A stretch of 64,000 nt of DNA from a virus. The notes under the pieces were generated by a model that was not told the origin of the DNA, did not search any database, and saw nothing but the letters and a program-made list of their open reading frames with translations. Shown here piece after piece: positions 127 through 61,300 of this stretch. The position numbers were made by a program, and so were the translations under genes. The stretch's first letter is position 1; the number at the start of each line of letters is the position of its first letter. The DNA lies in the IMG/VR virus record IMGVR_UViG_3300025759_000090, positions 1 through 64,000 of that record; one strand, given 5' to 3'.

Positions 127-222
127 ATAAACATAATTTTTCAGATGTTGTATATTGTGAATCTTGTGATTTTGTGGAGTATTAATTCAGGTGTTGGAGT
201 CAACAGGGAGTAGTGAGAAAAA

Positions 223-1155
223 ATGTCGAAGTTTAGAGCGAAAAAATTGGCCTACAAGAAAAAGAAAAAGTTAGAAAATAAATACAATCTAACTGAAAGA
301 CAAGAACGTATATTTTTGGAAAAAGCAGTTCAGACATTTATTGATTACAAACAGACTCCTGATGGTGGAACATTTTTGGATGGAGATAGTTGTGTTTCTC
401 ATTCTCAATTGTTCCATTTATTCCTGAAAAAATTAGGATTCAATTCTAGTAAAGTAATCTGTGTTGATATTGCTAGTTGGAATAGAGATTATGTTGCATG
501 GTATAATGCTGGAAATGGATATGAAACGACATCTGATGGATATGTTTGTGAGGGTTTTCCAAACGCTTACATTGGGTTATGTGGTCATATGGAAGGTTGG
601 GATTTTCAAAGTGATTTAGAAGGATATGCAGGTCATGTAATAGTTCAGACAAAACATCATTTCATTGACTTAACTTTTGGTCAATTTTCTCGACCCGATA
701 ATGACATCATTGTTCCACCAATTATGATAATGCCGAGAACAATTTTTAGAACAAGAAAAGAACAAGAAAAAGCAAATATGATTCCACCATTTATGATTCA
801 GATGAATGATTCCCACATTAAAGCGAAAAGTTGGAAGGAAACAGAAACAAATAAAAGACTTTTAGAAAAGGAACAACATTCTTGGTCAGGTTTTAAGAAC
901 AATTCTCGGATTGCATTATTACCATTATACACGATATCAAACTATTCAGGAAATATCATGTTTACTACACGGCCTGACCAAAATATTTCAGAAAATTATC
1001 CTCGATGGAACAAGAAATCTTTCACAGTAACAAATGACAGAATATCAGAAGTTTTGTTGTCAATACATAATGGGAAAAAAATGGATATAAAAGATAGGAT
1101 TAAGGTCTATGAAGAAACAGGTCATATTACAATTGATGTGAGCGAAGATGAGTGA
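223..1155 (+). CDS. Transglutaminase-like / papain-fold cysteine protein (putative)
   Basis: A 310-residue protein with a very basic N-terminus (about residues 5-20). Cys57 (in GDSCVSHSQLF) opens a helix, followed by a strand around 78-84, then His138 (YAGHVIV) and Asp149 (HHFIDLTFGQ). This Cys-His-Asp order and spacing are those of transglutaminase-like cysteine peptidases and related acyltransferases; I assign the fold from this pattern only. The C-terminal 130 residues show no recognised motif. It heads a cluster of small genes and overlaps the next gene by 8 bases. A palindrome copy sits just upstream at 192-205. The role could be host-protein modification or peptide cleavage. Confidence 0.5.
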   Translation: MSKFRAKKLAYKKKKKLENKYNLTERQERIFLEKAVQTFIDYKQTPDGGTFLDGDSCVSHSQLFHLFLKKLGFNSSKVICVDIASWNRDYVAWYNAGNGYETTSDGYVCEGFPNAYIGLCGHMEGWDFQSDLEGYAGHVIVQTKHHFIDLTFGQFSRPDNDIIVPPIMIMPRTIFRTRKEQEKANMIPPFMIQMNDSHIKAKSWKETETNKRLLEKEQHSWSGFKNNSRIALLPLYTISNYSGNIMFTTRPDQNISENYPRWNKKSFTVTNDRISEVLLSIHNGKKMDIKDRIKVYEETGHITIDVSEDE

Positions 1156-1393
1156 GAAAAAAGATAAGAAAATCAAAAATCTTCATATCAGAATCAAAGA
1201 TTTAGAAAGACTACTTAGAAAGTCTAGGAAATCCGAGAGATTTTGGCGTAAGAAATGCGAGTTGCTTGGTCAAGAGACTATTGACTTGAGTTTAGCCCTC
1301 AGATTCGCTGCAAATGACAAAATACAGCAAATTAGTCAGATGGGTAGAAGTCAGAAAGGTGCTTGGGAAGTAGAAGGTGAAGAAAATGAGTGA
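1148..1393 (+). CDS. Small basic coiled-coil protein, function unknown
   Basis: An 81-residue Lys/Arg-rich protein, helical and probably coiled-coil over residues 10-60 (IKDLERLLRKSRKSERFWRK). The ATG lies inside the end of the previous gene and its stop lies inside the start of the next, so the three are probably translationally coupled. No family recognised. Confidence 0.55.
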   Translation: MSEKKDKKIKNLHIRIKDLERLLRKSRKSERFWRKKCELLGQETIDLSLALRFAANDKIQQISQMGRSQKGAWEVEGEENE

Positions 1394-1622
1394 TATTGAA
1401 GAGAATCAACTAGAAAGTTTCAGACGTCGAATGTTAGAACCGCCATTCGTATGTCCTGTTTGTGAAAAAAAACCTGCTTGTATTACAACAACTTTGACAT
1501 CAACAACTTACGATGTTTCTAGTGGATGGATAGATGTTGCAGACCAAATTGATTGGAGAAGTTGTATGGATTGTTTTCGGGAAATGAAATCCGACAAAAA
1601 CTCCGTGTTGAACTCAACATGA
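1386..1622 (+). CDS. Small zinc-ribbon protein carrying an inserted tail-gene segment
   Basis: A 78-residue protein (ATG at 1386; an in-frame GTG at 1377 is possible). CPVC near residue 23 and CMDC near residue 60 form a two-knuckle zinc ribbon. The loop between the knuckles (nucleotides 1491-1548) is identical in DNA to two adjacent pieces of the PKD domain of the tail gene at 28747-28803, but in the opposite order, and is read in the same frame. The knuckles are plausible native sequence; the loop looks acquired. The stop overlaps a TGT TGA ACT CAA CA palindrome copy at 1606-1619. Confidence 0.6.
   Translation: MSDIEENQLESFRRRMLEPPFVCPVCEKKPACITTTLTSTTYDVSSGWIDVADQIDWRSCMDCFREMKSDKNSVLNST
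1491..1548 (+). repeat. Permuted copy of a PKD-domain segment (donor at 28747-28803)
   Basis: Block A (1491-1520, 30 bases) equals 28774-28803 and block B (1521-1548, 28 bases) equals 28747-28774. The order is A-B here and B-A in the tail gene, where the two blocks share one base. No mismatches are seen. Confidence 0.85.
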
Positions 1623-1730
1623 AAAACGCCATTTTTTGAAATATTGCTCAGTTTATATAGTCTTGAGTTCATATGGTTAATCGGCTCGGAAACAGGCGGA
1701 ATAAAAAACCCCAATACAATCCGAATATTC

Positions 1731-2006
1731 ATGGTCGAAGTATCTTATTTGCTGGTCGAAGCAGAAGAGGGTCGAGAACTACATCTCGCAACAGATAATT
1801 TAGGGAATCGAAAAGTCGTTATGAGAATGCAGAATACAGGAATGGAAATTACTTATTTCAAAGACTTGTTTTCTTCATTGGGATTCGATGTTTATTTTCA
1901 GAATGTCAGATTGTTGAATCCAACAGATGATGTCAAGAAATGGAATGTGGATTACAATGCAGTTTCAGATTATAATGCTAGAAGAATTACATTAATGAAT
2001 CCTTAA
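1731..2006 (+). CDS. Hypothetical protein
   Basis: A 91-residue protein starting at ATG 1731 (ATGGTCGAAG, the same start context as the gene at 34589); an in-frame upstream extension to 1644 reads like non-coding sequence and is not favoured. Mixed alpha/beta composition, no Cys motif, no recognised family. A palindrome copy (1912-1925) lies inside it. Confidence 0.5.
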   Translation: MVEVSYLLVEAEEGRELHLATDNLGNRKVVMRMQNTGMEITYFKDLFSSLGFDVYFQNVRLLNPTDDVKKWNVDYNAVSDYNARRITLMNP

Positions 2007-2016
2007 TATAGGTGGG
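2003..2016 (+). promoter_or_regulatory. Class I promoter element without a start codon at the usual distance
   Basis: TTAATATA followed directly by GGTGGG. No ATG, GTG or TTG lies 22-23 bases downstream; the next clear gene starts at 2163, so a long leader is implied. Positions 2061-2072 and 2107-2118 in that leader form an imperfect 12-bp inverted repeat of G- and C-runs. Confidence 0.5.
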
Positions 2017-2162
2017 AGAATCAGTCATAGATTACTCAACGCAATAATACCACGTATTATGGGGGTAGGGGGCGTTGGGTAGGTTTGTGTTATTTCCTTT
2101 TTTCATCCCCCTACTCCCACCAATCATCTTAGACATTAACCAGCGTTTTCTCTTTCATATTT

Positions 2163-2534
2163 ATGAGCGAACAGCATGGTTCAGATTTGGTTCTTCAAGT
2201 GTTTGCATTCTTCACAGTAATTCTATTAACATCAGTTTCTATGATGCCCCCTTTACCAGCAAGAATAGTTCCGTTTTGGGAAGAAGATTCCTGTATGTGG
2301 TTTGATGGTGAAATCGTTTCTAAGCGAATCGAGAATGAAGGATTAATAACAGCCGATTATATTTTGGGGGTTGATGGAACTTTGGACAATTTTACAGACA
2401 TACAAATGGAAGTGCATTCTGATGTTTTCGTCTATGAGATTTTACCAATTGGTGCATACTACAATGGAACTGTTTGTGATACCGTTCCTTTACGTCAGGC
2501 TGTAATAGATGGAGTCATTATATTCATCTCTTGA
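2163..2534 (+). CDS. Small membrane-anchored or secreted protein
   Basis: A 123-residue protein. Residues 8-30 are hydrophobic (LVLQVFAFFTVILLTSVS), a signal anchor or signal peptide, followed by a soluble region with two cysteines (near 44 and 109) that could form a disulphide. It is followed by a class I promoter and two further tiny genes, the second of which has a similar hydrophobic start. Possibly an envelope-acting accessory or lysis-related protein; no family recognised. Confidence 0.5.
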   Translation: MSEQHGSDLVLQVFAFFTVILLTSVSMMPPLPARIVPFWEEDSCMWFDGEIVSKRIENEGLITADYILGVDGTLDNFTDIQMEVHSDVFVYEILPIGAYYNGTVCDTVPLRQAVIDGVIIFIS

Positions 2535-2544
2535 TATAGGTGGG
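2531..2544 (+). promoter_or_regulatory. Class I promoter element
   Basis: TTGATATA then GGTGGG; ATG at 2561 is 22 bases after the first G, consistent with a leaderless transcript. Confidence 0.7.
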
Positions 2545-2560
2545 ATTAACAGGTGTTGTT

Positions 2561-2704
2561 ATGGAAAAAGAATGGATATTCCCAGCGTCAATGAATCCAC
2601 ATGAGTTTGGTCGGAAAATGCAAATCATAGTTTTCGCAAATCCGAATGTCGAATTTGTATTCAAACGAATTGGCGGAAATGTCGTAGTGAAAGTTTTGGA
2701 ATGA
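2561..2704 (+). CDS. 47-residue hypothetical protein
   Basis: Starts at the ATG placed by the class I element and ends at TGA 2702-2704. Reads MEKEWIFPASMNPHEFGRKM and then an alternating beta-strand pattern rich in Val. The stop overlaps the next start (ATGA). Unknown function; the promoter and coupling support it as real. Confidence 0.6.
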   Translation: MEKEWIFPASMNPHEFGRKMQIIVFANPNVEFVFKRIGGNVVVKVLE

Positions 2705-2817
2705 GGATGCTGTTGATGTCAACATTCATTCTGATGTCAACAATCCCACCCTTCCAACTTTTTGACGATGTTTGGTCAGAAGCATATTCATTGTCAGAAA
2801 TGTATTCATTAATATAG
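2701..2817 (+). CDS. 38-residue hydrophobic peptide
   Basis: Overlaps the previous gene by ATGA. Residues 1-18 (MRMLLMSTFILMSTIPPF) are hydrophobic and resemble the membrane segment of the protein at 2163-2534; the rest is acidic and polar. A palindrome copy at 2711-2724 lies in the coding part, in a different reading frame from most other copies. Its stop codon falls in the next promoter. Could be a membrane or secreted peptide. Confidence 0.45.
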   Translation: MRMLLMSTFILMSTIPPFQLFDDVWSEAYSLSEMYSLI

Positions 2818-2822
2818 GTGGG
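2809..2822 (+). promoter_or_regulatory. Class I promoter element with a leader
   Basis: TTAATATA-type box then GGTGGG, 41 bases before ATG 2858; the leader holds a GGAGATG ribosome site, so this transcript is probably not leaderless. Confidence 0.6.
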
Positions 2823-2857
2823 ATTTTCTAACGTAAATTACACAGGAGATGTGAACA

Positions 2858-3328
2858 ATGACTGAATATACGAAAGCCGAAATAAAAACGATGACGAAAG
2901 CAAGCATCATAAATGCATTTGATAAATACGGATGTACCTTTGACGAAAAGACTGCGGGGGCAGTAAAATACACAGCAATATCTTTGAACGGTAGTTACCA
3001 AAGAATTGCTGCTATTTATGGTTCGCAAGGTGGTGGTGCATCAATATGGATTAAGGAAGCAGCATGGGAACAAATTAGACCACAGGTTACAGAAGGAAAC
3101 ATCCGAGTAGATGATGTTGATTTAACCAAGCGTGGATTCCAATGGGCTATCCATTTTGACAATCCAAATGACCCACACATTCAGATGGTTGTAGATGCTG
3201 TTGTTGAAGTTGGAGAAATCAGATGGACTAGAGCCAAGAAAAGAAAAGCAGATGACGCTCGCAGGGCAGAACAAAGAATACTTCGTGAAGCAGAAATGGC
3301 TGAGAGAAAAAGAAATCCATTTGCGTGA
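2858..3328 (+). CDS. Hypothetical protein, 156 residues
   Basis: Preceded by a class I promoter and a GGAGATG ribosome site. The first 110 residues look like a compact alpha/beta domain (one Cys near 26, a Gly-rich turn SQGGGAS); residues 120-152 are a highly charged helix (KKRKADDARRAEQRIL). No family recognised. It is followed within 10 bases by the next gene. Confidence 0.6.
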   Translation: MTEYTKAEIKTMTKASIINAFDKYGCTFDEKTAGAVKYTAISLNGSYQRIAAIYGSQGGGASIWIKEAAWEQIRPQVTEGNIRVDDVDLTKRGFQWAIHFDNPNDPHIQMVVDAVVEVGEIRWTRAKKRKADDARRAEQRILREAEMAERKRNPFA

Positions 3329-3337
3329 GTGATTGGG

Positions 3338-3520
3338 ATGGAAATCCTAGAAATTTTAACAGAAAGTGGAAGGTCTTTTATTGACCAATCTAAGATTATC
3401 GCTATTACTATAATCGAAGGTAAATCTGCTGAAATTCATATGACATCAGGAACAATTTTCACAACTAAGGAAATGGATGTTGTTCATAGAATAGATTTCC
3501 TAAAAAACCTAATCAGTTAA
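3338..3520 (+). CDS. Small hypothetical protein
   Basis: 60 residues from ATG 3338; a GTG at 3329 would add three. Beta-rich (IIAITIIEGKSAEIHMTSGT), ending in a short helix. No family recognised; it lies 9 bases after the previous gene and 10 before the next, so it is probably cotranscribed. Confidence 0.5.
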   Translation: MEILEILTESGRSFIDQSKIIAITIIEGKSAEIHMTSGTIFTTKEMDVVHRIDFLKNLIS

Positions 3521-3530
3521 GAGATAAATT

Positions 3531-3620
3531 ATGAGCGAAGAACTTGACCCAATCGGATTAGCGATTGTGATTGTCTCTCAGATGTTTTGTCTGTTGGCAA
3601 TTTTGTTCATTCTTTCTTGA
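3531..3620 (+). CDS. 29-residue single-span membrane peptide
   Basis: ATG AGC GAA start like many genes here. Residues 9-29 form one hydrophobic span (GLAIVIVSQMFCLLAILFIL). Too short to classify; possibly an accessory membrane or lysis peptide. Confidence 0.45.
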   Translation: MSEELDPIGLAIVIVSQMFCLLAILFILS

Positions 3621-3715
3621 TTGCTGCAAGTATTGCATCTCGGAATATTAGGCTGCAACTCAATTCCGAATGCACTTGATACAGTATTATCGAGTTTTAT
3701 TGAGAAAACGAAGTA

Positions 3716-3781
3716 TTCATAACCGATAGCCAACGTGAGCGAAGCGAAAAAAGCGACCCGTAGGTCAAGGAAAATGATAAC
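3716..3781 (+). promoter_or_regulatory. Leader with TTCATAACCGATAGCC element
   Basis: TTCATAACCGAT is followed by a GCGAAGCGAAAA block and then ATG 3782. The leader of the gene at 46944 has the same two blocks in the same order (from 46866). Probably a third promoter or leader type. Confidence 0.4.
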
Positions 3782-5929
3782 ATGATAACAGAAAACACAC
3801 TAAATGACCCAAAAAGTAGGATTAAGCCAGCAGAATTTGATTATGACTTAACTCCGATTCAAAGATATAATCGAATAAGAATGAAATTACAATCAGAAGG
3901 ACTTGTATTGAAACAAGAGAGATTTTCCGGTGAAGAACAACATCTTGCTTTGATTCAATGTGAGGACATAAGCCACATACCAATTGCATACAGCCCTCAT
4001 GGTGGTCAAGTTCGTGCTTCGGTTGATGGTCGCAAACCTCTTTACAATATACCCGTTGATTGGTGGGGCAAAAAAATTATTTTGAAATATTATGCAGGTG
4101 AAGATATGGTTGAATTAGTCATGAGTGGAGATAGACAATCATACAAAGTTCTCAAGCCGAGAAGTTGGAATGTTTCAGCCAAAGCCGAAGTTGGAATCTA
4201 TGGAGAAGAAAACATGGGTAATGGATATGAAACAAGAAATCTGATTTGTGGATTTGCAGATGGTTCTTCTCCTGAAACTATTCATATTCCATTGGATTAT
4301 AGAAGTCGTGCTGGTTACATCGGGCAAAGATATGACTGTCTAAGAAAGTCTATACTTGTTCAAAGAAAAACTGATTCAAATGGAGAATATTACTATGTTT
4401 GTGAGGATGGTATTTTGTTCCATTCTATTGCTGATACAAAAGTAGTTTCAGGTGGTCAATATGATGAACATCCATGCAGACAATCTAGCCTGAATAACAT
4501 TTTACCAAAGCCAGCAACTTTCAACATAACAACAATATCTAGCACTAAGCCTTCTGTTACAAAAGTCAAGCGTGGAAGTGCCAAAGCACCATATCTAAAA
4601 CAACTATCTGCAAATTGGGATAAATCCCTAAAGGGTGCTGTTCTAGTGTCTTGTCAATGCTGTAAAGGTAAAGGTAGAACTAGGGCTAGTATTTACAACA
4701 AAGCAAGTGTTTGTGAATGGTGCAATGGAACAGGTCTAAGTTTCATCTCAGAAAAACAATTTTCAACATTGCCTGATTCTAAAAAGAATTCAGTTGTTGA
4801 AACCGATGTTGAAACTCGTCATTCTCATCCTGAGATTGCAGCACTTCAAGATGCTTTAGATATGGGTACAGTTCCAAACAGAAGTATTAGTTTCGCTGAA
4901 TCTTTAGTTAGTCAATTCTTAGCGAACGGAAAACTATCTTCTTCTCAGATGTATTATGTCAAGGAACTAAATACGCCTCAAGCAAGTCGTGGTGGAAATC
5001 CAAAAATTGATGCTCTAAAGAAAGTCCATGAAAGTCTTACAGGTCGAGACAAAAACTTCGCAATTGATTTGATTGGTTCATGGAATAAATATGGCCGTCT
5101 TTCTGACAAGCAAATGTATTGGGTTGGGGAATTAACCAAGAAAGGAATTGCGACTTCTCCTGACGTTACTAAAGTGCAAGATGGATGGGATGCAGTTGTT
5201 GAACTATTCAATCAGTTTGAAGGTTCAGAAAACGGCAAACCTTTGAAACACCCAATCATCACTTTAGTTGTTGAGTCCAACACCAAAGAAGCACCAGCAC
5301 CATGCGTTCCAAAATACGGAACAAAAGGTGTTGAAACTTTCAATTCATTTCAAAGAGAATTAGTAATTCGCCCACTAAACTTCTTTGACAAAAGAACAGG
5401 AACATCCGAATCAGCAGAATTACAGTTTACAGAAGCAGAAAGAGCATCTTCTCAGGATAGCCGTAGATTCATCCAAAATGGTGCAACCCTAGCAAGAGGT
5501 AATGTAAACCGTTTCAACGGCACTATGACACCTTCTATGGGGCTTCCTGACGATACTTGGATAGTTCTTCAATCCCTTCGTGCAGACCCAATCGCAACTA
5601 TCCGTAGATTAGGTCGAAAAAGTGGTTACTGTTGTTTCTGCAACAAGCACCTTTCAACAGATGTTTCAATGACTCATGGATATGGTGCAACCTGTGCTAA
5701 GAATGCAGGTCTGCCTTATGGTAAAAAATCAGCAGCATTGATTGAGAAAGAAATAGAGAATGAAGTAAGCCGAGTTGTTATGCAATTAGAAGGCGGTTCA
5801 TGGGCTGTTGTATGCCTAGAAACTAACTCAGTCATTATGACTTTCGACAACAAAGACCAAGCAGAAAATTGGTTGGATGAAGATACCAAAGTTGCCTTCC
5901 AAAACAAAGCAGGGGAATTAGTAGAATGA
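3782..5929 (+). CDS. Large multi-zinc-finger protein with DUF6011-like C-terminus
   Basis: A 715-residue protein of unknown role. Two CxxCxGxG/CxxCxGTG knuckles around residues 296-322 (CQCCKGKG and CEWCNGTG) form a DnaJ-type zinc module. Two helical repeats near 378-396 and 428-446 (GKLSSSQMYYVKEL and GRLSDKQMYWVGEL) match a short motif common in virus zinc proteins. Near 620-650, CCFCNKHLS followed by HGYGATCAKNAGL matches the DUF6011-type zinc motif (CxxC then GxGxxC). The repertoire suggests nucleic-acid binding. It ends in an ATGA overlap with the next zinc protein. Confidence 0.6.
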   Translation: MITENTLNDPKSRIKPAEFDYDLTPIQRYNRIRMKLQSEGLVLKQERFSGEEQHLALIQCEDISHIPIAYSPHGGQVRASVDGRKPLYNIPVDWWGKKIILKYYAGEDMVELVMSGDRQSYKVLKPRSWNVSAKAEVGIYGEENMGNGYETRNLICGFADGSSPETIHIPLDYRSRAGYIGQRYDCLRKSILVQRKTDSNGEYYYVCEDGILFHSIADTKVVSGGQYDEHPCRQSSLNNILPKPATFNITTISSTKPSVTKVKRGSAKAPYLKQLSANWDKSLKGAVLVSCQCCKGKGRTRASIYNKASVCEWCNGTGLSFISEKQFSTLPDSKKNSVVETDVETRHSHPEIAALQDALDMGTVPNRSISFAESLVSQFLANGKLSSSQMYYVKELNTPQASRGGNPKIDALKKVHESLTGRDKNFAIDLIGSWNKYGRLSDKQMYWVGELTKKGIATSPDVTKVQDGWDAVVELFNQFEGSENGKPLKHPIITLVVESNTKEAPAPCVPKYGTKGVETFNSFQRELVIRPLNFFDKRTGTSESAELQFTEAERASSQDSRRFIQNGATLARGNVNRFNGTMTPSMGLPDDTWIVLQSLRADPIATIRRLGRKSGYCCFCNKHLSTDVSMTHGYGATCAKNAGLPYGKKSAALIEKEIENEVSRVVMQLEGGSWAVVCLETNSVIMTFDNKDQAENWLDEDTKVAFQNKAGELVE

Positions 5930-6144: not shown

Positions 6145-6242
6145 ATCCGTCATCTACATTTTACAATTCACAAAAATATTTTCTCTGACATCTCAGATAT
6201 ACCTGTTGACATCAACAGTAATTAACCGTAATTTCTCCTTCG

Positions 6243-6533
6243 ATGATTATGGGAAACCGAGCGTTCAGTTTAGCAACAGGAAACAACTTAGTTTTTGCAT
6301 CAACAACTAACCTACTTTCCATAGCAGGTAATACAACAGGTGGAACAGTAACATTAGCACTTTACAATGGTAAAGTTGTAGGTGATATTGCAGCCGCAAA
6401 TCTTGTTCATACTTTCACTTTGGCTGCTGGTGCAGTTACATATGGTTTTGAGGGTATTTTATTCCCTGCTGGAATTGTTGCAGTTTTGACTTTGAATGGT
6501 GGAACTGCTGATATTCTTTTGGAACACGATTGA
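6243..6533 (+). CDS. Small beta-rich protein, possible virion decoration protein
   Basis: 96 residues (94 if ATG 6249 is used). Composition is Gly/Ala/Thr/Val-rich with alternating strands and no Cys, as in small capsid-decoration or spike-like beta proteins; this is inference from composition only. It stands alone, with palindrome copies on both sides (6204-6217 and 6559-6572), and points toward the terminase gene on the other strand. Confidence 0.5.
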   Translation: MIMGNRAFSLATGNNLVFASTTNLLSIAGNTTGGTVTLALYNGKVVGDIAAANLVHTFTLAAGAVTYGFEGILFPAGIVAVLTLNGGTADILLEHD

Positions 6534-6810
6534 GATTCAATTTGCATAGTTCATATACTGTTGAGTTCAACATGGTCGAAAAAGCACTCAACATCTTTTT
6601 TTCAGATTTTTACAAATCTAAATATTCTGTATTTCTGACTATTTTTTTCTAAATTTGATTTATTCTGCAACCTGCTAGGGGTCAAAACCCTTATTTTCCG
6701 ATATTTGCCTATTTAGAGCCAATCTGACGGCCTCTTTTGTGTTTTAGGACTCTACCTACCAGCGACCCCAAAAAACGGTCAGAAACGCTTCTATTGATAT
6801 TTGTAAGATT
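6534..6810. other. Intergenic region between converging genes
   Basis: 277 bases, T-rich, with a palindrome copy (6559-6572) whose last bases contain ATG 6571-6573 of a possible 26-residue peptide, and a TCTGACTATT element at 6634-6643. No strong hairpin terminator was seen; oligo-T stretches on both strands could end transcription. Confidence 0.4.
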
Positions 6811-8328
6811 TTAGTCTCCAAACACGCCAATTTGGGGCATTCCACTATCTTCATCGAATCCAATTGCTAGTCTTGCATACAATAAAGCATGAAATGCGTG
6901 GTCATCTCCATCTCTACCAAATTTAGTTTTATTTTGAGCATGAGTTGGTCGCATATTTTGTTCATCTTGTTCTGCTGATGAATTCAAAGAAGTCCATTCG
7001 TGTAAAACCCATTCCAAATCTGTTGTTTTGTATGGTAGAGAAATTTCTTTATTTTTGATTGCTTCAATTGTTGATTCGATGTAAGTTGTTCTATCTACAA
7101 CAGCCATGTAAATTAGGTTTCTATTGTTGTCTCTTTTCTTGTATTGAAATGGAGTCAATGGCCGACTAGAATAATAACACGATTTTACCATATCTCCGTA
7201 CTCTCTTTGGAGTTCTTTTACCTGTCTTGCCCCATACCCTATATCGCATACAACTTGTACGCAATTATAGCGTTCTATGAGATTCTTAATTTCTTCAACT
7301 TCATCGTTTTGATAGTCAGCCCTTGAATCTAATTTTAGAGCATTTACAATTTCACCATTTTTTCTCATAATCACAACTGTTGTTTGATTTCCCCAATCAA
7401 CACCCATCACAGTTTCTTCCGGTGCATCTACAAATCTCAAAATCTTCCTGTTGGTGTCAACAGCCTTCAATGCTTCATCAAAAGTCAACGGTTTTGTCGA
7501 ACCAGCGAAAAATTCTCCAAGAACTTCATTCGCATATCTTCTTGGAGTGTAAGTTGCTTTTTTCATTTTGATATCTTCATCAGTAATTTCAGGATGCATC
7601 TTTTGACTGATATGATATCCGATAATTCCTTCTTCTGAATTTCCATGAATCCATTCTTCTCCGTTCCATTCTCCTTTGGTAGTTTTCTCCCATAATTTCC
7701 AAAAGTCTGAACCCTGTTCTCTAGCAGTTCCACTAACAAGAACCCACTTGTATTCTGATAGTGCTAACATCTCAACCAACATAGGTAAAACATCTGCACC
7801 CGAATCCTGATATTCGTCAATACATACCATGTCTGCTTCGATACCCAATAGACCATGTGCATCACCCCAATTTGAGTAAGCATATAGGTGATTCAAAGAC
7901 CTTGCACCAACATCAAAAGTTTGGTGGCTAACTGACTGTTTGATTCTTGGTTTCATCAGGCATCCACCATTGATAGATGACATCAAAGCACCATTGAATC
8001 TTTCATCAACAAATCTACTAACTTGTGGTTGTCTTGGTGCTGTGTAAACTGCATTGAAATATGGTATGTTCAGAAGGCCATACATTAGTAGATTACAGAT
8101 GGTTTCAGTTTTCTCAACTTTTCTACTACATTTGAGAACAACCATTTTTGTTTTTGAAGATTTATTGCTTGGTTGAAAATGCCGATAGACATCTATCAAA
8201 TATGGTCTTTCGTGAAGGCTAAATGGCTGACCATTTATTGTTCTAAAATACTGACTCCATCTATCAGGATAAATTGCGATTTCTCTTGCTTGTGTTGCTG
8301 TTAATTTAGCAGTAATACTATCGCTCAC
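6811..8328 (-). CDS. terL: Terminase large subunit (TerL)
   Basis: 505 residues, the DNA-packaging motor. The ATPase has an unusual Walker A (KCSRKVEKTE, residues 66-75), Walker B MVCIDE (167-172) and a coupling motif VSGTA (198-202). The RNase H-fold nuclease shows its acidic residues in GVDWGN (Asp311), VVCDIGYG (Asp362) and DGDDHAFHA (about 473-480). Start ATG AGC GAT. It is one of only four minus-strand genes in the window, separated from portal and capsid genes, so it is expressed from its own promoter. No small terminase was recognised. Confidence 0.93.
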   Translation of the reverse strand: MSDSITAKLTATQAREIAIYPDRWSQYFRTINGQPFSLHERPYLIDVYRHFQPSNKSSKTKMVVLKCSRKVEKTETICNLLMYGLLNIPYFNAVYTAPRQPQVSRFVDERFNGALMSSINGGCLMKPRIKQSVSHQTFDVGARSLNHLYAYSNWGDAHGLLGIEADMVCIDEYQDSGADVLPMLVEMLALSEYKWVLVSGTAREQGSDFWKLWEKTTKGEWNGEEWIHGNSEEGIIGYHISQKMHPEITDEDIKMKKATYTPRRYANEVLGEFFAGSTKPLTFDEALKAVDTNRKILRFVDAPEETVMGVDWGNQTTVVIMRKNGEIVNALKLDSRADYQNDEVEEIKNLIERYNCVQVVCDIGYGARQVKELQREYGDMVKSCYYSSRPLTPFQYKKRDNNRNLIYMAVVDRTTYIESTIEAIKNKEISLPYKTTDLEWVLHEWTSLNSSAEQDEQNMRPTHAQNKTKFGRDGDDHAFHALLYARLAIGFDEDSGMPQIGVFGD

Positions 8329-33721: not shown

Positions 33722-33746
33722 AACTTTGATGTTGGCCTCAACACGT

Positions 33747-47138: not shown

Positions 47139-47139
47139 A

Positions 47140-52431: not shown

Positions 52432-52447
52432 AATATCAGGCTTTGAT

Positions 52448-52639
52448 ATGAGCAATCAGAATGAGATAAATGCACAGCACGAAATCGAAGATATGAGATT
52501 ACAAATTCAGCAATTGAATGTCAGAATAGAAAAGTTGGAATCTATACTAACTGCAATATCCCAAGCAGCAGATATCAGAACTCCAAATATGACAAATGAA
52601 CATCTAAGAAATCAGACTACATTGATGGGCTGGAAATGA
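52448..52639 (+). CDS. Small coiled-coil protein
   Basis: 63 residues. Heptad pattern throughout 8-45 (IEDMRLQIQQLNVRIEKLES). Start fixed by the class I element; an in-frame ATG at 52400 lies upstream of it. ATGA-coupled to the AAA+ gene that follows. Could be an oligomerising partner. Confidence 0.55.
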   Translation: MSNQNEINAQHEIEDMRLQIQQLNVRIEKLESILTAISQAADIRTPNMTNEHLRNQTTLMGWK

Positions 52640-53475: not shown

Positions 53476-53502
53476 CTAAAACAATCCACCACATAGAACT
53501 GC

Positions 53503-53531
53503 TTATTAGTGGAAACTAACCCCGTAGGGAT
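53503..53531 (+). promoter_or_regulatory. Class II-like promoter
   Basis: TTATTAGTGGAAACTAACCCC leads to ATG 53532, 29 bases after its first base; similar to TTGATAWRGGGAAACC sites. Confidence 0.35.
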
Positions 53532-55706
53532 ATGCAAAGCACAGCCGAAGCCACAAGATTGTCAAGAAACAAAGTGAAAGAAGCCCGATTCCATAGAGTC
53601 TCGAAGGTCATGTCAGGAGAATTAACAGGGTTTGGTTCTAAGGTCGAGAGAGTAGTAATTGACCCACATGGCAAAGCCTGTACCAATGGAAAAATAATTT
53701 GGATTCCTGAGTCAATGCACGACAATCCAATTTACAATCAAATCATGCAAGAAGCAATCTTAGCACATGCGAATGCTCATCACAGATATACAGATTTCGT
53801 AGCATGGAATCGCAAGGTGGTCAAGCCGACTCAGAAATATGCTTGCGACCCACTACTACACAAGTTTGTAAATATGCTAGAAGATGCTAGAATCAATCAC
53901 CTATTCGGTCAGGATTGGAAGGGTAGTAAAAAGAGGATGCAATTTACTCACGAAGTTTTCATGCAAAGACACAAAGAAAACACAACTGATGATTCACCTT
54001 TGAAAGAGCAAGCAATGGTTGCTATGATGACCGAAGCAATTGTTCACGAACCACATTGGTTTACAACACCCGAAGTTGTTGACTTCATGGATGCTAATAG
54101 AGCATTACTAAACAATGCAATCAAGCAAAGACATACATCTGCTGTGATAGACCAAGCAAAGAGATTAATCAAAGCGTTTAGAGAAGCATTCCCTGACGAA
54201 GATGACCCATCCACAGGAATGTCATCAGATGACCTATCTCAACAACAAGTCGAGGAAGCATCAGAACAACAAGAGTCTCAAGGTCGCAATCCTGAACAAG
54301 TCAGTTCTAACAGATTCAAGGACATGAAAGAAGCAGAAAAAGCAGAACCAAAAGAAGAGAAGAAATCAGAAGATTCAGATTCAAATTCAGATTCAGATTC
54401 CACACTTGGAGATTCAGAATCAGAAGGTTCAGATTCAGATTCAGAAGGTGCTGGTAGTGATGGAGAAGATTCAGATGAAGAATCAGATTCAGAAGGTGCT
54501 GGTGGAGAAGGTGGAGAAGATTCAGATTCAGATGGAGATTCAGACTCAGAACCAATGACAGGAGATGCAGATTCAGAAGGTGCTGAAACTGATGGAGATG
54601 GAGATGGAGAAGATTCAGATGGAGATGTAGATGGAGATTCAGATTCAGATGATGGTGGTCGAGGCGGAGTTGGTGAAACAGGTACGTTTGAAGAGGCTTG
54701 GGCTGACTTACTTGACTCAGTTGATAGTGATGTAGCCGAGATAGAAGAAACGGCCTTAGATTTGGATAATGGGATAGAAACATCTGCAACAAAACAAATA
54801 GTGAAAGATGTTACAGAAATCAAAGGTAAAACCGTTGAAGAAGATTCTTACAGCATGGTTACAGAATGTGGTCATAAAATAGAAGTTGTCGCTACTGCTA
54901 AAGACTTTAGAAATAGAGAAAATAAAATCATGCGTCATGCAAGCACATACAACCGTGTAGCAACACAACAAAAGAGAGTAATCAAGAGGATTACTAACGA
55001 GATGAAAAGAAGATTGAAAGGTCAAGACCCATCATGGGAAACAGAACAAAAAAGTGGTCGTCTAAATCCACGAAGGGCATACAAATTAGGTAATGCTAAA
55101 GTCCACAAGATTGACAAAGTTTACAGAAAGAAAACCACACCTAAAGATGTTACAGGAAATGCTATCATTCTAATTGACGCATCAGGCTCAATGAGAAGTG
55201 GTAGTCGAGCATCAGATGCTTCTAATGCAGCAGTTGTTTTCTCAGAAGTTTTCCGCAACATCGGAATGAACTACGAAGTTGTTGACTTCAACACCCATTA
55301 TGGAACAACCATGAGAGTCAGAAAATCCTTCGCAAGTGCTGGAACTTCAACTCTTGACAAAGCGTGTATTGCTGCACCATTTACAGGTTCAGCAAATGCA
55401 GATGGATATGCTGTTCAATGGTGCTTAGATAGACTTGCTACAATGAATGGTAGTCGCCTTCTCATTGTTATCTCAGATGGTCAACCAGCAGGTGCTTCGC
55501 CATCAGGCTTGACTGACGAAGAACATTTGATTCAAGTAACAGAAAATGCAAACAAGAAAATCGGTCTGCTTGGTATTGGAATCGCTGGTCAAGATACATC
55601 TCAATTTTACCCTAACGCTATTACTATCACAGACGAGTCTCAGATAGCAAGAGAAGCCATGACGGTGCTTCGCCCTATGTTGAAGCGTATCGTGCCTAGA
55701 GCATAG
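53532..55706 (+). CDS. CobT-like von Willebrand A protein with Ser-Asp linker
   Basis: 724 residues. N-terminal domain with HANAHHRYTD (about 77-86) resembling a degenerate HExxH region of VWA/metalloprotease-like proteins and NMLEDARINHLFGQ (about 113). Residues 270-385 are a Ser/Asp/Glu repeat encoded by GATTCA units. The VWA domain has the MIDAS motif DASGSMRSG (about 548-556) and Thr/Asp positions later (VVDFNTHYG; VISDGQPAG). Pairs with the CobS-like ATPase; together they may remodel a host or virus complex. Confidence 0.82.
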   Translation: MQSTAEATRLSRNKVKEARFHRVSKVMSGELTGFGSKVERVVIDPHGKACTNGKIIWIPESMHDNPIYNQIMQEAILAHANAHHRYTDFVAWNRKVVKPTQKYACDPLLHKFVNMLEDARINHLFGQDWKGSKKRMQFTHEVFMQRHKENTTDDSPLKEQAMVAMMTEAIVHEPHWFTTPEVVDFMDANRALLNNAIKQRHTSAVIDQAKRLIKAFREAFPDEDDPSTGMSSDDLSQQQVEEASEQQESQGRNPEQVSSNRFKDMKEAEKAEPKEEKKSEDSDSNSDSDSTLGDSESEGSDSDSEGAGSDGEDSDEESDSEGAGGEGGEDSDSDGDSDSEPMTGDADSEGAETDGDGDGEDSDGDVDGDSDSDDGGRGGVGETGTFEEAWADLLDSVDSDVAEIEETALDLDNGIETSATKQIVKDVTEIKGKTVEEDSYSMVTECGHKIEVVATAKDFRNRENKIMRHASTYNRVATQQKRVIKRITNEMKRRLKGQDPSWETEQKSGRLNPRRAYKLGNAKVHKIDKVYRKKTTPKDVTGNAIILIDASGSMRSGSRASDASNAAVVFSEVFRNIGMNYEVVDFNTHYGTTMRVRKSFASAGTSTLDKACIAAPFTGSANADGYAVQWCLDRLATMNGSRLLIVISDGQPAGASPSGLTDEEHLIQVTENANKKIGLLGIGIAGQDTSQFYPNAITITDESQIAREAMTVLRPMLKRIVPRA
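54370..54660 (+). repeat. Low-complexity GATTCA / GGAGAT repeat region
   Basis: Many in-frame GATTCAGATTCA-type units coding Ser-Asp and Gly-Asp-Glu in the VWA protein. Long open frames on the other strand here are shadows of this repeat. Confidence 0.85.
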
Positions 55707-55742
55707 GTCTGAGGGTCAGGAAACGGTAAAGGAGATATTGAT

Positions 55743-56930
55743 ATGAGAAGGGCAATAGAAACAGATTACGATTACAAACATTGGGTTGGGGAAACTTTTC
55801 TTGATAAGCGGGAATTATTATTTTTTCAAGATAGTCGCAATAATGCAGAATTACATACAACTCATCCTAAAAAATATTGGGCTGATTCAAGTTTGAATCC
55901 AAAAGTGCAATTCAAAGATAGTTCTATGATAAGTGAAATATGGGCGGAACTTGGAAGATATATGTCAGAAAAAGAAATCAAAACCTGTGCTGATTGGTTG
56001 CATTATATTAGCGGCATTTCATCAGTATCACCATGTATTCAAGATGGTCGAGTAAATGCTCATTCTTACTCAATCACAACCCCTGTTGAAAAAATCAAAA
56101 TTGCTGTGCAAAGTGATAAGAATGATTTTGATGGTGAACAACCATATTTCAAAAGAAGTCTTTTGTCTTTCATGGTCTTGCATAATGATGGAAGAAATGT
56201 CATCCTTGCACCATTGTTAAATGGAACAACAAAGTTTCCATTTGAGAACAACGTTGAGGAAGTTAATTATCCTCATGCAGAAGATGTTTTTGTATCTAAA
56301 TTATGTTCCGCCAAATCAAAGAATCATGGATGGGTGAATGAATTATTTGTTGTGAATGTTGATTCAATTGAAGGTCAGCCTGAAAATAGTAAAGGTGGAA
56401 GTGTGTTTGATGACGAACTTAAGTTTGGAGATTTCATTCATTCTTCATGGCATAATATAACTCAGTCAGGAACAATAGAAATTGGTGAAGCAATTCTTGG
56501 AGACAATCTAGTTTATGATTTCATTCCGAAAACCGATTTGTATGTTGGTGGAAATCTGATTGAGAAGATGTTGACGCTAACAAATGATAATTACAATATG
56601 TTTGCTATGCTAGATTTGATGAATGAATTGACACATCAATGTGAGAGAGTTATTGATACACATACTGTTTCAACTACTACCAAAGTCAAAACTTCTAAGA
56701 CTACATTTATTCCAACATGGAAGGATAACAGACCAAGCGAAACAATAGATTTGACCGATGGTGAATATGTGATGTATTCTGACATTTTCAGGTGTCCTGT
56801 ATGCAATGTAAAGGTCAAGGTTATAGGTAAGGGTAGCAACCGGAAATCCCAAGCAGAATGCCCCCTGTGTAAAAAAGGGCAAATTGAGTTTCCACATTTA
56901 GTAAATAAAGAAGGAGTTGAAGAAGAATGA
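55743..56930 (+). CDS. Hypothetical protein with C-terminal zinc ribbon
   Basis: 395 residues after a GGAGAT ribosome site. No recognised domain in the first 330 residues; the end has CPVCNVKVKV and CPLCKKGQIEF (near 350-380), a zinc ribbon. Overlaps the next gene by ATGA, suggesting a shared task with a DNA-binding partner. Confidence 0.6.
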   Translation: MRRAIETDYDYKHWVGETFLDKRELLFFQDSRNNAELHTTHPKKYWADSSLNPKVQFKDSSMISEIWAELGRYMSEKEIKTCADWLHYISGISSVSPCIQDGRVNAHSYSITTPVEKIKIAVQSDKNDFDGEQPYFKRSLLSFMVLHNDGRNVILAPLLNGTTKFPFENNVEEVNYPHAEDVFVSKLCSAKSKNHGWVNELFVVNVDSIEGQPENSKGGSVFDDELKFGDFIHSSWHNITQSGTIEIGEAILGDNLVYDFIPKTDLYVGGNLIEKMLTLTNDNYNMFAMLDLMNELTHQCERVIDTHTVSTTTKVKTSKTTFIPTWKDNRPSETIDLTDGEYVMYSDIFRCPVCNVKVKVIGKGSNRKSQAECPLCKKGQIEFPHLVNKEGVEEE

Positions 56931-57499
56931 GTAAGAGAATTACAAAGAGTTTGAGGCAAGCAATAGTTAGAGCAATATACACAGGGAATGAACAACATTC
57001 TCAACCAATGAGGCCAAGCGAAATTGTTGGATATATCAAGAATGATTCTAAGTTGCCAATTTCGATGAGGGGAAAAACAACAAAGCAAGTTGCTTACATT
57101 TTGAGTCAGTTAGCAAGAGATTATGATGATGTCATAGTTACAGAAGTCTTAGGAAGAAACGGAACTAATCATCATGGTAATGAAAGATTCACAAAAGCAT
57201 TCTCAATCAAATCAGATTATACTTTGTCTGATGCTGAAAAAGCAATTGCTGTTCCACAAAAGAAAAGACAAAACAAACAACAGATTACAGTTATGCTTTC
57301 ACGAAACTCAATTGAGTATATTCAGGAATGGAAGAAACTTGGAATGTCAGCAGGTCAAGTTGTTGAGAATCTAATTACAGCAGATAGAGAAATCAATGGT
57401 TTACCTTCTAAGCAAACTAAGAATTCATTTGTTGAATTTACTAATCCTTTGCAGATAAATGACAAACTTGCTGTTTCTGATACAAATAGAAACGAATAG
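56927..57499 (+). CDS. Putative DNA-binding protein (winged helix plus RHH-like segment)
   Basis: 190 residues, basic. Residues 1-75 fit a winged-helix regulator (MRPSEIVGYIKND, TTKQVAYILSQLARDYDDVI). Residues 115-150 (ITVMLSRNSIEYIQEWKKLG) look like the strand-helix start of a ribbon-helix-helix unit. No other candidate regulator of this kind is seen in the window, so it is a candidate for binding the repeated palindrome or promoters; this is inference. Confidence 0.5.
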   Translation: MSKRITKSLRQAIVRAIYTGNEQHSQPMRPSEIVGYIKNDSKLPISMRGKTTKQVAYILSQLARDYDDVIVTEVLGRNGTNHHGNERFTKAFSIKSDYTLSDAEKAIAVPQKKRQNKQQITVMLSRNSIEYIQEWKKLGMSAGQVVENLITADREINGLPSKQTKNSFVEFTNPLQINDKLAVSDTNRNE

Positions 57500-57678
57500 A
57501 GGCCATGAAATTATTCAGGGGTACAGTTTAACCTAAAATACAAACAAGTGGCTAGGATTGGCTCTATTGATACAAATATGACTAATATCGTTCTGACTGT
57601 TATCTGACCATATTCAAATCAATTTATTCACAACATATTCTGACAATCCTCAATAGCCGGAACACATCAGGGTTCATT

Positions 57679-57966
57679 GTGAGACAAATCGTATGGTCTG
57701 TTGATATGATGGATGGTCATGTTCTGATAGGACATGATGAATCAGGATTTGAGTTAGTTCAAGTCAGAACAGGTTCTTCACATTGGAAGTTTTCATTCTC
57801 AGGTTATGATGGTCATGGAAGAGTTAGAGTTGGTCATGGATGTAATTACAATCCATTACTTTTGATTGAGGATATTTTTCAGAAAATTGAAAATGGAATT
57901 GAAACGCCTGTTGAACTCAACATGGATAATTTCGATAACTCCACATTTTCTGAGGAATGGAGTTGA
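57679..57966 (+). CDS. Small paralogous protein A
   Basis: 95 residues, GTG start. Similar along its length to the protein at 58046: IVWSVDMMDGHVLIGHD against ISWTTTIRDATYLVGFD, and RVRVGHGCNYNPLLLIED against RVKGNGCKDPLRFME. Beta-rich front and one conserved GC motif. Family unknown. Palindrome copy inside (57909-57922). Confidence 0.55.
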   Translation: MRQIVWSVDMMDGHVLIGHDESGFELVQVRTGSSHWKFSFSGYDGHGRVRVGHGCNYNPLLLIEDIFQKIENGIETPVELNMDNFDNSTFSEEWS

Positions 57967-58046
57967 ACGATTTGGATGGTGTTTGTTACGAAGGATTCAA
58001 CAGATTTTGGAATTGGGTTGCTAAGAAAATTGGGTTGTTGATTTGA
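57963..58046 (+). CDS. 27-residue peptide between the two paralogues
   Basis: TTG start overlapping the previous stop (TTGA) and stop overlapping the next ATG (TGATG). Aromatic-rich (LNDLDGVCYEGFNRFWNW). The double overlap supports translation; weak evidence otherwise. Confidence 0.35.
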   Translation: MNDLDGVCYEGFNRFWNWVAKKIGLLI

Positions 58047-58324
58047 TGATATCTTGGACTACAACAATTAGAGATGCAACATATCTTGTTGGCTTTGACA
58101 AAAATATGAAAGAGATAGGAAGTTTAGTTGAAATCGAAAACGAATGGATAATGCATCTTGATGAAAAAACAATCAGGGTAAAAGGCAATGGATGCAAAGA
58201 CCCATTGAGATTCATGGAATGTTTAGTTTCACCATTATCTAATGATTCAAAAAAAGAAAAACATCCGATAATTTTGGAGTTCATTCATCCTGATGGTGAA
58301 TGTTGGGAAGTTTGGAATAATTAG
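58046..58324 (+). CDS. Small paralogous protein B
   Basis: 92 residues from ATG 58046. Paralogue of the protein at 57679, with the shared I/V-W-T/S start, GFD/GHD turn and G-x-G-C motif. Located just before the tail fibre gene. Confidence 0.55.
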   Translation: MISWTTTIRDATYLVGFDKNMKEIGSLVEIENEWIMHLDEKTIRVKGNGCKDPLRFMECLVSPLSNDSKKEKHPIILEFIHPDGECWEVWNN

Positions 58325-58374
58325 ATACAGCCAATAACCCCTTTCATGGCTGGTGTATATATTGGTGGTGGCGT

Positions 58375-61300
58375 ATGCCTAGAACAAATAATGAAAATCT
58401 TATTTCCGGCACACAAGCAGAACGAATATCTGTAACACTAGATGCTGAACAATTAGTCAAAGATACAACTACACAAGCATTGTTCGTAGGTGATGGCTCT
58501 ACTGTTGGCGGAAGGGCTGTTGATGTCCGACCCGTTTCAGATATTACAGGCAACTATACTTTGGTCAGGGCTGACGAAGGAAAGATTCTCAGATTCAATT
58601 CTGCATCTGCAATTACAATCACAATTCCAACAAATGCGAATGTCGGATATCCTGTCAGTTTGACACGAATCCCATTCATAAATTTGGGTGCTGGTATTGT
58701 TACTTTGGTTGCAGATACCGGAGTAACTTTAAATTCTATCGAACCCAATATTAATTCTAAAGAAAGTGGAGAAATACACAAGACAGCAACTAACACTTGG
58801 TATCTATCAAAAGGTGGTGCAGGTGTAAGTCAATTAACAGAACTAACTGATGTCAATATTACTAATCTTCTCAATACTCAAACCTTACAATATAATACCA
58901 CATCAGGTAAGTGGGAAAACGTATCTTCAACTGATGCAAATACAACTTACGATTTAGCAGTTCCAGCATCAACAACAAATCTCAGATTGACAGGTTCAGA
59001 TGGCTCAACAGATAATATAACTTTGACAGGTGCAGGTGCAACTTCGATTGCTAGAACATCAGAAACAGAAATGACAATCACATCCACGAACACAACTTAT
59101 GGGGTGTTGATACCAACAGGTACTACAAGTCTGAGATTGTCAGGTTCAGATTCATCAACAGATGACATTTCAATTGTTGGTGGAACAAATACAACTGTTA
59201 CAAGAACATCAGATTCGATTCTAACTTTAGCCTCGGATGATACTACTTATTCTCTAGGAACTTCATCTGCTGGAAGTAATGCAACAATTGATTTGATAGC
59301 AGGTGGTTCAGGTAGTGGAACAGACTCGGTAACATTGGCTGCTGGAAGCAACATAACTATCTCAGAAACAGGAGATACAATCACCTTTGCTGGAACTGCT
59401 GGAACTGTTACAAGTGTATCGGGTTCAAGTCCTATTTCTGTATCATCAGGAACATCAACCCCAACCATATCAATTTCTCAAGCAGATGCAAGCACGAATG
59501 GATTCCTGAGCAGTTCAGATTGGTCAGTATTCCAAAGCCGTTTATCCAGCGTTGGAATAACAAGCGGTGGTGGTCTATCTGTATCAGGAAGTCCACTAAC
59601 AAGTAATGGTTCAATTACACTAACAAACACAGGAGTAACATCTAATGTTGCAGGTACAGGAATATCAGTCTCAGGTGGAACAGGTGCAGTTACAATTACT
59701 AACACCGATTTGGGTTCTTCTCAAAACATATTCAAGACCGTAGCAATTAGTGGTCAAGACAATATTGTAGCAGATAGTAATTCAGATACATTGACACTTG
59801 CAGAAGGTAGCAATATTACATTGACTACTAATGCTGGAACTGATACAATTACAATCGCTGGAACTGATACAACTTATTCTGCTGGAACAGGATTAAATTT
59901 AGCCGGAACTACTTTCTCAAATACAGATTTGGGTTCGGCTCAGAACATATTCAAAACAATAGCAGTAAGTGGTCAGTCGGATATAGTCGCAGATAGCAAT
60001 ACAGACACGCTTACATTCGCTGCTGGGAGTAATGTGTCTATTACTACTACTGCGGGTACAGACACGCTTACAATCGCTTCTACGGACACAAACTATTCTG
60101 CTGGTTCAGGACTAGATTTGAATGGAACTACTTTCAGCGTTGATGTCTCAGATTTCATGGCTAATGGAGTCAACAATAGAATCCTAACTGCATCGGGTGC
60201 AGATTCCATAAATGCTGAGTCAGGTTTGACTTTCGATGGCAGCACTTTGAATGTTGGTGGAAGTGTAATAATTTCTTCTGACCTTACTGTGAATGGAACT
60301 ACTACAACAATCAACACTCAGACTCTAAGTGTTGATGACCCAATGGTTGTTGTTGGAGATAACAATTCAGCGAATAGTGTTGACTTAGGAATCATAGGAA
60401 AATATGTTGACACCAACACATATTATTCAGGACTTCTACGAGATGCAAGTGCTGGCAAATTTAGATTATTCACAACAACTCAAGATTTGAGTTCGGCAAC
60501 AACTGTTGACCCAACAAACGGTGGATATGCAAATGCAGATTTGATTGCTGGTGCAATACAACAATCGGGTGCAACAAATGGAATAGTATATGCAGATTCA
60601 AATGGCAACTTACTTGGTGGTAGAACAATATCAGAAGGAGTCGGTATTGACATCACAAATGGTAGTGCAGTTTCAGGTAATCCAACTATCTCTCTTGACT
60701 TATCTGAATTGACAACTTCAACATCAAATGCTGACGGTGATTTCTTTGTTGTCGTAGATACAGGAAATGCTCAGAAGAAATTAACGAAGGCTAACATCAA
60801 TATTTCAGGATTCAATAATGATTCAGGATTCACAACAAATACAGGTACAGTTACATCAGTTGGGCTTGCAGGTGATAGTGGCTCAACAGCAATCACAACA
60901 TCAGGTACATTCACGATTGCAGGTGGAACAAATGTAACAACAAGTTTGTCAGGTTCAACTCTTACAATTGCTGCAACAGATACTAACACAACTTATTCTG
61001 CTGGTGATGGTCTTGACCTTTCAGGAACGACATTCAGCACCGACCTAAAATCTAATGGTGGTTTGGTAATTGAGTCAACAGAATTAGCAGTTGATTTAGG
61101 TGCATCTTCAATTACAGGAACACTAGCAATTTCAGATGGTGGAACAGGTGCAACATCTGCTGGTAATGCAAGAACAAATTTAGGTCTAGGTTCACTAGCA
61201 ACTTTGTCATCTGTTGCATTCTCAAATATAGCACCAGCAGCAGTTCAATTGAGTAGCGAATCTTTCACAGATGTTGATACCACATTGATGACTTCTGCTG

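Follow-up and report, generated by a model that had tools for sequence, protein, structure and literature searches.

The window analysed here, the whole stretch of 64,000 nucleotides, covers positions 1 to 64,000 of IMG/VR record IMGVR_UViG_3300025759_000090. The record is 64,851 bases long and comes from an uncultured tailed virus, and the window holds part of its genome. A 14-bp palindrome, TGTTGRNNYCAACA, occurs in the window in 34 exact copies from 192 to 60418, the number given in the preliminary description of this DNA. The looser pattern TGTTGNNNNCAACA recovers the identical 34 sites, and every one has a purine at position 6 and a pyrimidine at position 9 (R6 and Y9, 34/34). The flanks of the sites are without further strong signal. 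A related record, G415 (L303/L304), overlaps both ends of the window (1-4694 and 51032-64000) with identities of 99.98% on one side and 99.1% (ungapped) on the other, which closes the genome into a circle of about 76.6 kb. Within this circle TGTTG-N4-CAACA occurs 42 times (41 with R6/Y9), at a mean gap of 1,823 bases. The part outside the window contributes eight of these copies (seven with R6/Y9) and small genes, including some for winged helix-turn-helix (wHTH)-like proteins.

The sites run through the whole window and are given here in window coordinates, with no strand assigned. The first, TGTTGGAGTCAACA (192-205), is intergenic and lies ahead of open reading frame (ORF) 223. Site 2 (1606-1619) reads TGTTGAACTCAACA, as do sites 12 (18576-18589) and 32 (57909-57922). 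Site 3, TGTTGAATCCAACA (1912-1925), is retained in the relative G004 (L013) and has the same letters as site 25 (46291-46304). Sites 4, TGTTGATGTCAACA (2711-2724), 6, TGTTGACATCAACA (6204-6217), and 7, TGTTGAGTTCAACA (6559-6572), are all intergenic; the letters of site 7 recur at site 17 (31319-31332). Site 5 (5269-5282) and site 14 (23418-23431) read TGTTGAGTCCAACA. The form TGTTGAAGCCAACA is found at sites 9 (9630-9643), 13 (21030-21043) and 21 (41768-41781), the last of which is intergenic. Site 10, TGTTGAACCCAACA (11735-11748), lies in the portal gene, and site 11, TGTTGAGGCCAACA, at 14397-14410. Sites 15 (28266-28279), 20 (39183-39196) and 30 (53019-53032) share TGTTGAAGTCAACA, while TGTTGACCTCAACA forms site 16 (28392-28405) and the intergenic site 29 (52270-52283). 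Site 18, TGTTGGCCTCAACA (33730-33743), sits between convergent genes and is repeated at site 24 (44859-44872). Sites 22 (43655-43668) and 31 (55280-55293) read TGTTGACTTCAACA, and single forms make up sites 26 (TGTTGAAACCAACA, 46746-46759), 33 (TGTTGATACCAACA, 59105-59118) and 34 (TGTTGACACCAACA, 60405-60418). The remaining sites, 8, 19, 23, 27 and 28, are described below with their counterparts in related viruses.

Dinucleotide-preserving shuffles give a mean of 0.07 copies of TGTTGRNNYCAACA against the 34 observed, and about 0.3 copies of the looser core are expected in third-order Markov sequences. The chance figure of 0.02 offered earlier was thus somewhat low, and the conclusion of enrichment stands. 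Among 500 codon-preserving shuffles, in which each protein and the per-gene codon usage are unchanged, genic copies average 0.59 with a maximum of 4, nowhere near the 26 observed; this was the control named in the preliminary description as able to overturn the claim. Copies with one mismatch show hardly any excess in the window (13 against about 9 expected) and those with two show none (60 against about 80). The signal in this genome is nearly all-or-none. Eight of the 34 sites are intergenic, in a gene set that leaves out ORF 1377-1622. It had been suggested that the copies fall in different reading frames, and all three frames are indeed used, but 21 of the 26 genic sites share a single frame (x-V-[DE]-x-N), with four in the second and one in the third. 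Position 6 is an A in 30 of the 34 sites, and one frame would then read TGA.

Relatives were collected via TerL and PolB, and later also via other genes. The comparison with related genomes that had been proposed earlier bears out the enrichment, which is present in each dialect's own spelling. The viruses form an uncultured tailed virus group with about 30 to 60 palindrome copies per genome, mostly intragenic. Nearly all related records tested have the same build, 4-N6-4 with a spacer of exactly six, and the spelling differs by lineage (TGTTG, TGTCG, TATYG, TACTG, TA[CA]G or TGTTC). Group A (TGTTG, for example TGTTGAAGTCAACA) comprises the window, G001, G004 and G020, and later G415 and G416. 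Group B (TGTCG, for example TGTCGAAGTCGACA) holds G002, G003, G005 and G025, and later G417. CTATTG is the spelling of group C1 (G010, G011, G013, G023) and TATYG that of group C2 (G017, G022, G024), while group D (G012, G016, G018, G019, G021, later G420) has TATYG or mostly TATCG. A weaker TATY signal defines group F (G014, G015). Group E is G006 alone (TGTTC), group N is G007 to G009 (TA[CA]G), and G419 has TACTG. Density is about 4-9 sites per 10 kb in most records and 3.3 in G006, although the looser TATY and TA.G patterns behind these densities take in some chance hits.

The spacer of six is seen under each record's own half-site in all of the first 26 records, window included, and is weakest in G012, G014 and G015. 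TRTY-N6-RAYA peaks at spacer six in records of groups A to D and F. TA[AC]G-N6-C[TG]TA is found 42, 39 and 31 times in G007, G008 and G009 against 0-9 at other spacers, TGTT-N6-AACA 29 times in G006 against 0-1, and TACT-N6-AGTA nine times in G419 against none at 12 other spacers. Among nine later records, G415, G416, G417, G419 and G420 have the spacer-six signal, G418 has a weak one and G421 has no clear motif. The remaining two, G422 and G423, carry ACCT-N6-AGGT sites reading ACCTT..ATATAGGT, which may be promoter-like. The dialect differs even between close relatives whose TerL proteins are 90-93% identical.

Several other repeats and variants were met in these records. The middle of the 27 TGTTC-form sites of G006 is mostly YRYR, unlike the other dialects, and this lineage may use the array differently. 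A single TATCGAACCCAATA, in the TATYG dialect, stands inside the TGTTG virus at G415:7706-7719 (about window 58737-58750) and may be a relic or chance. GGWCC-N4-GGWCC in G007, G008, G009, G013 and G023 was rejected as an array, being a nine-base repeat read as collagen-like coding sequence; GGWCC every nine bases at G007:235-2251 and 78613-80674 mimics the palindrome signal, with similar counts in the other four records. TATAA-N8-TTATA in G008 and G009 is a second palindrome, separate from the array and with additional conserved bases (12 copies in G008, 1689-82479).

The window and G004 are 89.7% identical over 51,939 aligned bases, and the ten core bases are intact at 30 of 30 comparable sites (core identity 1.000), with agreement of 0.867 at the central NN and 0.907 in the flanks. 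Group B records, whose alignable parts match the window at 76-77% identity, carry TGTCGRNNYCGACA, in many cases at exactly those codons that hold TGTTG in the window. Over 23 covered comparisons with G002, G003, G025 and G417, which count some sites in two records, TGTTG has become exact TGTCG in place in 14, is still TGTTG in one and is altered or lost in eight. Because of the codon-preserving control, the 30/30 retention and these in-place switches, the earlier proposal that selection works on the DNA itself is upheld.

Ten positions are common to at least three groups, with letters in the local dialect; a position counts as shared when it is present in a group, though not in every record of it. 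Site 27, TGTTGACATCAACA (47975-47988), at PolB codon 117, and site 19, TGTTGATGCCAACA (36378-36391), at codon 123 of ORF 36016, are common to A, B, C1, C2, D and F. Site 8, TGTTGGTGTCAACA (7449-7462), at TerL codon 291, is common to A, B, C1, C2 and D with differing letters. Site 23, TGTTGAAGTCAACA (44190-44203), at codon 45 of ORF 44062, is common (within two codons) to A, B, C2 and D, and site 28, TGTTGAAGTCAACA (50138-50151), at PolB codon 838, to A, D and F. The PolB codon 117 and TerL codon 291 sites thus persist across deep splits while their letters change. The residues encoded at shared positions, from codons read by eye, track the dialect as V-[DE]-x-N, V-[DE]-x-D and I-[DE]-x-[ND]. 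A one-mismatch variant in the helicase gene of the window, TGTTCGTGTCAACA (TGTTC, 32839-32852), corresponds to sites at that codon in A, B and C1; near codon 301 group B has TGTCCGTGTCGACA and C1 has TATTC..CAATA.

TATYG groups lie on both sides of the midpoint root of the TerL tree (support 81/79), a root used for drawing only, and TATYG may for this reason be the ancestral dialect. Group N nests inside the tree and, of the ten common positions, shares only that at codon 245 of ORF 52636 (positions shared with a single group were left uncounted), yet its site density is similar. It is therefore the array, and not the individual loci, that is kept. Single sites are long-lived, yet the array outlasts the loss of most of them.

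This pattern could also arise if the palindrome were a mark of self DNA, used in recombination, repair, replication start or packaging and held by drive or purifying selection like DNA uptake sequences (DUS), with marked DNA preferred and dialects separating lineages. The near-exact copies in the window without a clear excess of near misses, their intragenic positions and even spacing, and the near absence of common positions in G007-G009 at similar density would all suit such a mark. The DUS of Neisseriaceae form eight dialects that follow phylogeny, with two dialects mixed in one genome (PMC3630211). The likeness lies in an abundant short genome-wide signal with dialects; the difference is that DUS are a cellular competence signal in thousands of copies, serving the natural transformation of cells. 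The retention of 30 of 30 sites also suggests that single sites matter more than drive requires. DUS are not palindromic, and we know of no uptake route for these viruses. A self-DNA mark is an unlikely explanation in our estimation.

The symmetry of the sites bears on what kind of molecule is read. Five-base arms that are able to pair and that change together between lineages would also be found in an RNA hairpin (UGUUG-RNNY-CAACA) read in transcripts, and in several records of the TATYG dialect, in which the palindrome is degenerate at position 4, the wobble-compatible combination T-G is about twice as frequent as C-A at positions 4/11 of the coding strand. However, pairing would be broken at positions 6/9, where the 34 window sites have 13 A-C, 17 A-T and 4 G-T combinations, and C-A occurs at 4/11 in nine of ten records counted. 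The use of one sequence for all of a virus's sites points to sequence reading as well. A hairpin is extremely improbable. As far as the letters can tell, the two-fold symmetry and the unpaired combinations point to dimeric DNA recognition instead, as had been supposed in the preliminary description.

Along the genomes the sites are mostly intragenic (26 of 34 in the window), with G006 as an exception (13 of 27). In a layout comparison of nine records the gaps are more even than random in six (the window, G004, G013, G017, G019 and G016; P 0.012 or less), and the evenness holds when the closed genome of 76.6 kb is taken as a circle (P 0.011). Intergenic DNA is not enriched in six of the nine records, and there is no general link of sites to gene 3' ends. 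The second half of genes holds about twice as many genic sites as the first in the window, G004, G013, G017 and G019, less so in G016; no such bias is seen in G006, G007 or G008.

This layout has to be weighed against a stoperator-like array, in which a viral repressor would block transcription through the genome in a quiescent or superinfected state and the dialects would be immunity groups. In cluster A mycobacteriophages 20-30 dispersed repressor sites per genome have a subcluster-specific consensus that drifts with the repressor, which prefers its own sites, and the sites are oriented with transcription (PMC6550527). The likeness is in tens of dispersed sites with a lineage-specific consensus, in a system that is virus-encoded there, and the dialects described here likewise split close relatives. 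The sites here are, however, palindromic, mostly intragenic and not generally at gene ends, whereas stoperators belong to temperate phages with a known repressor that halts elongation when bound. Families expected of a temperate virus also gave no match: tyrosine integrase (PF00589), serine recombinase (PF00239), ParB (PF02195) and ParA (PF13614) were each found in none of 12 records, which may be fragments. A pattern-based scan of a cellular genome collection, built on the TerL alignment, found no relative. Repression of this kind is a possibility we take seriously and still hold to be unlikely. A structural role is preferred over repression because the sites are palindromic, mostly intragenic, often evenly spaced and not generally at gene ends, and because searches for integrase and resolvase gave no match.

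In the genomes searched, which belong to the phylum and class of an archaeal metagenome-assembled genome (L187, titled Euryarchaeota archaeon), the motif is not host-wide. L187 need not be the host of the virus, and the Poseidoniales host implied in the preliminary description is not established. In the phylum of L187, TGTTGRNNYCAACA occurs in 177 of 389 genomes with at most six copies each, which is no TGTTG array and speaks against a host-wide signal. Nor is there a TATYG array in its class: TATYGRNNYCRATA is present in 78 of 100 genomes, with at most 17 copies in 5.2 Mb against 11 for the reversed control. A few genomes of the class have a small excess of TATYGRNNYCRATA (for example 9 against 2 and 8 against 0). 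A few features of the virus are archaeal. The ERCC4-type domain matches the four archaeal ones among 14 controls, and PolB is best covered by haloarchaeal viruses at 22-24%; the nearest TerL is that of a Rossellomorea phage at 31%. A host protein with host-species-dependent specificity could in principle read the sites, with the virus accumulating them, and that no reader was found in the viruses would fit. The lack of an array in both sets of genomes argues against such a reader, though the host may lie outside them, and we regard it as quite unlikely. Because the motif is not host-wide in these genomes, we infer that the reader is virus-encoded.

A modification site had been considered in the preliminary description, and a target of DNA methyltransferases or restriction systems would be palindromic and near-exact with degenerate R/Y positions, as here. 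The N6/N4 methyltransferase domain is, however, sporadic, being found in four of 12 records and in none of G000, G415 and G004, in a search that covered PF01555 only. Viruses are moreover expected to lose restriction sites, not to keep them. This explanation is highly improbable. Separately, a stretch at G019:28118-28675 resembles a methyltransferase gene but contains an in-frame TGA, and may be a decayed gene.

A reader should occur throughout the lineages and vary along with the dialect, and the core families that look DNA-binding were compared in this respect. The candidate already proposed in the preliminary description is W_56927 (56927-57499, plus strand), a protein of 190 amino acids with a winged helix and a part read as ribbon-helix-helix. 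Its predicted model has a mean predicted local distance difference test (pLDDT) score of 80.3 and a predicted template modelling (pTM) score of 0.54. The helical pair was read as ribbon-helix-helix by eye and has no Pfam match of that kind. The winged helix resembles many wHTH domains, with a best Z of 8.8 to Cdt1 and to an archaeal Orc1, and no match to SegB was found among solved structures; these matches of a predicted model indicate a fold and no function. Wherever a lineage has a record that spans this region, the wHTH part is present; the second part is absent from G006, G012, G014, G015, G422 and G423. A few helix residues differ between TGTTG viruses and one TGTCG virus (TTKQVAYILSQ and TPKQIAYIMNQ). 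No reader is named because no residue follows the dialect cleanly across lineages, and W_56927 is a weak candidate whose role as the reader is doubtful. Upstream of it lie genes for a MoxR-type AAA ATPase (50859-52106) and a CobT/VWA-type protein (53532-55706).

Other families were considered too. W_41372 (41372-41728, plus strand), a second core protein that is wHTH-like by eye without a Pfam match, is disfavoured because its helix-like stretch EIHRLTNHLAKKPHLF is identical in the TGTTG, TGTCG, TACTG and TGTTC viruses compared. A family of 96 amino acids at 6243-6533, found only in records of T-x-T-x-G dialects, was rejected for its acidic, virion-protein-like composition, judged by eye. The small wHTH families at G415 16306 and 21339 were found in A, B, C1, E and N records, with none in C2 or D, and so are not universal. 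When alignment columns were scanned for residues that stay the same throughout the TATYG lineages and differ in those with TGTTG and TA[CA]G, the 76-amino-acid W_42655 family came top (5 of 25 conserved columns) but is acidic and not convincing, and the HNH family at 18346 is core yet has no tracking column. W_50270, which may yet be a candidate, is basic, fast-evolving and core, with a high-confidence all-helical model and no PDB or viral match at E 0.001. Rfam and tRNA scans of the window gave no matches. Elsewhere in this virus, two proteins with SAP domains (PF02037) are encoded in the head-tail region (9328-9657 and 17796-18149), and a gene at L303:13932-14624 matches pyrimidine dimer DNA glycosylase (PF03013).

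Among cellular systems the closest parallels concern chromosome organisation. The sites of archaeal SegB (segAB) are scattered 13-bp palindromes, about 83% of them intragenic and 46 on a whole chromosome, tied to chromosome organisation and segregation, with variants in other genera (PMC12284271). The viral array is like them in being a short dispersed palindrome in tens of mostly intragenic copies (G006 apart). It differs in that SegB acts on a cellular chromosome with 46 sites chromosome-wide, against 42 in 76.6 kb here, in that SegB has a ParA-type partner, and in that the SegB motif is well conserved between genera while the viral motif drifts. MatP is a ribbon-helix-helix protein. In Escherichia coli its site matS is a 13-bp motif occurring 23 times in one region, which is structured by one protein bound to the repeats; matS is limited to 800 kb at one site per about 35 kb, and the part of the report at hand mentions no dialect switching (PMC3330122). 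ParB-parS is a further comparison, in which the ParB family (PF02195) was absent from the 12 viral records. Resemblance to SegB, matS, stoperators or DUS is not membership.

The reading we favour, at a probability of roughly 0.4, is that the array is virus-specific and genome-wide, and that its sites, about 1.8 kb apart, bind a dimeric protein which recognises their sequence and serves to organise or mark the viral genome. A dimeric viral protein would occupy the array during infection or replication and would there organise or mark the genome by compacting, bridging or segregating replicating genomes, much as SegB or MatP/matS do. The reader and its sites would co-evolve, and the role would probably be structural rather than transcriptional. 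A more far-reaching proposal is possible, though on balance doubtful: the palindromes may be a family-wide private watermark in coding sequences at intervals of about two kilobases, with a fast-evolving virus-encoded reader, whose code switches at lineage splits, forcing amino-acid changes in PolB and TerL, so that lineages recognise only their own genomes.

Several observations weigh against an organising array. No reader was identified among the core DNA-binding-like families compared, no residue pattern in W_56927 cleanly tracks the dialects, and no ParA-type partner such as SegA was found (PF13614, 0/12 records). Spacing is not significantly even in G006, G007 and G008. Intergenic DNA is enriched in the window (8/34, P 0.003) and G004 (9/32, P 0.011), and strongly in G006 (14/27), which fits regulation too, and the 100 bases next to gene ends hold marginally more sites than expected, though in the window and G004 only (P about 0.04). 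B and D records mix their half-sites, so exactness does not hold across the whole family. The genome-organising role is itself a proposal from sequence. That the array is read by a dimeric protein is likewise what we infer.

Dispersed palindromic binding sites as such are known; what is unusual here is an array that spans a whole virus, is near-exact in this genome and switches dialect. Among the papers listed by word searches of an open-access library, with subscription papers outside the scope, no account of a comparable viral array appeared. Selection at the level of DNA suffices to maintain about 40 palindromes in a single viral genome and seemingly steers the amino acids of conserved enzymes. 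Since the dialect varies among many lineages, the reader should be findable as the protein whose specificity follows the dialect, and the co-evolution of one protein with dozens of sites per genome is directly testable. Should the array serve to organise or mark viral DNA, a virus would have a system of the SegB/MatP kind.

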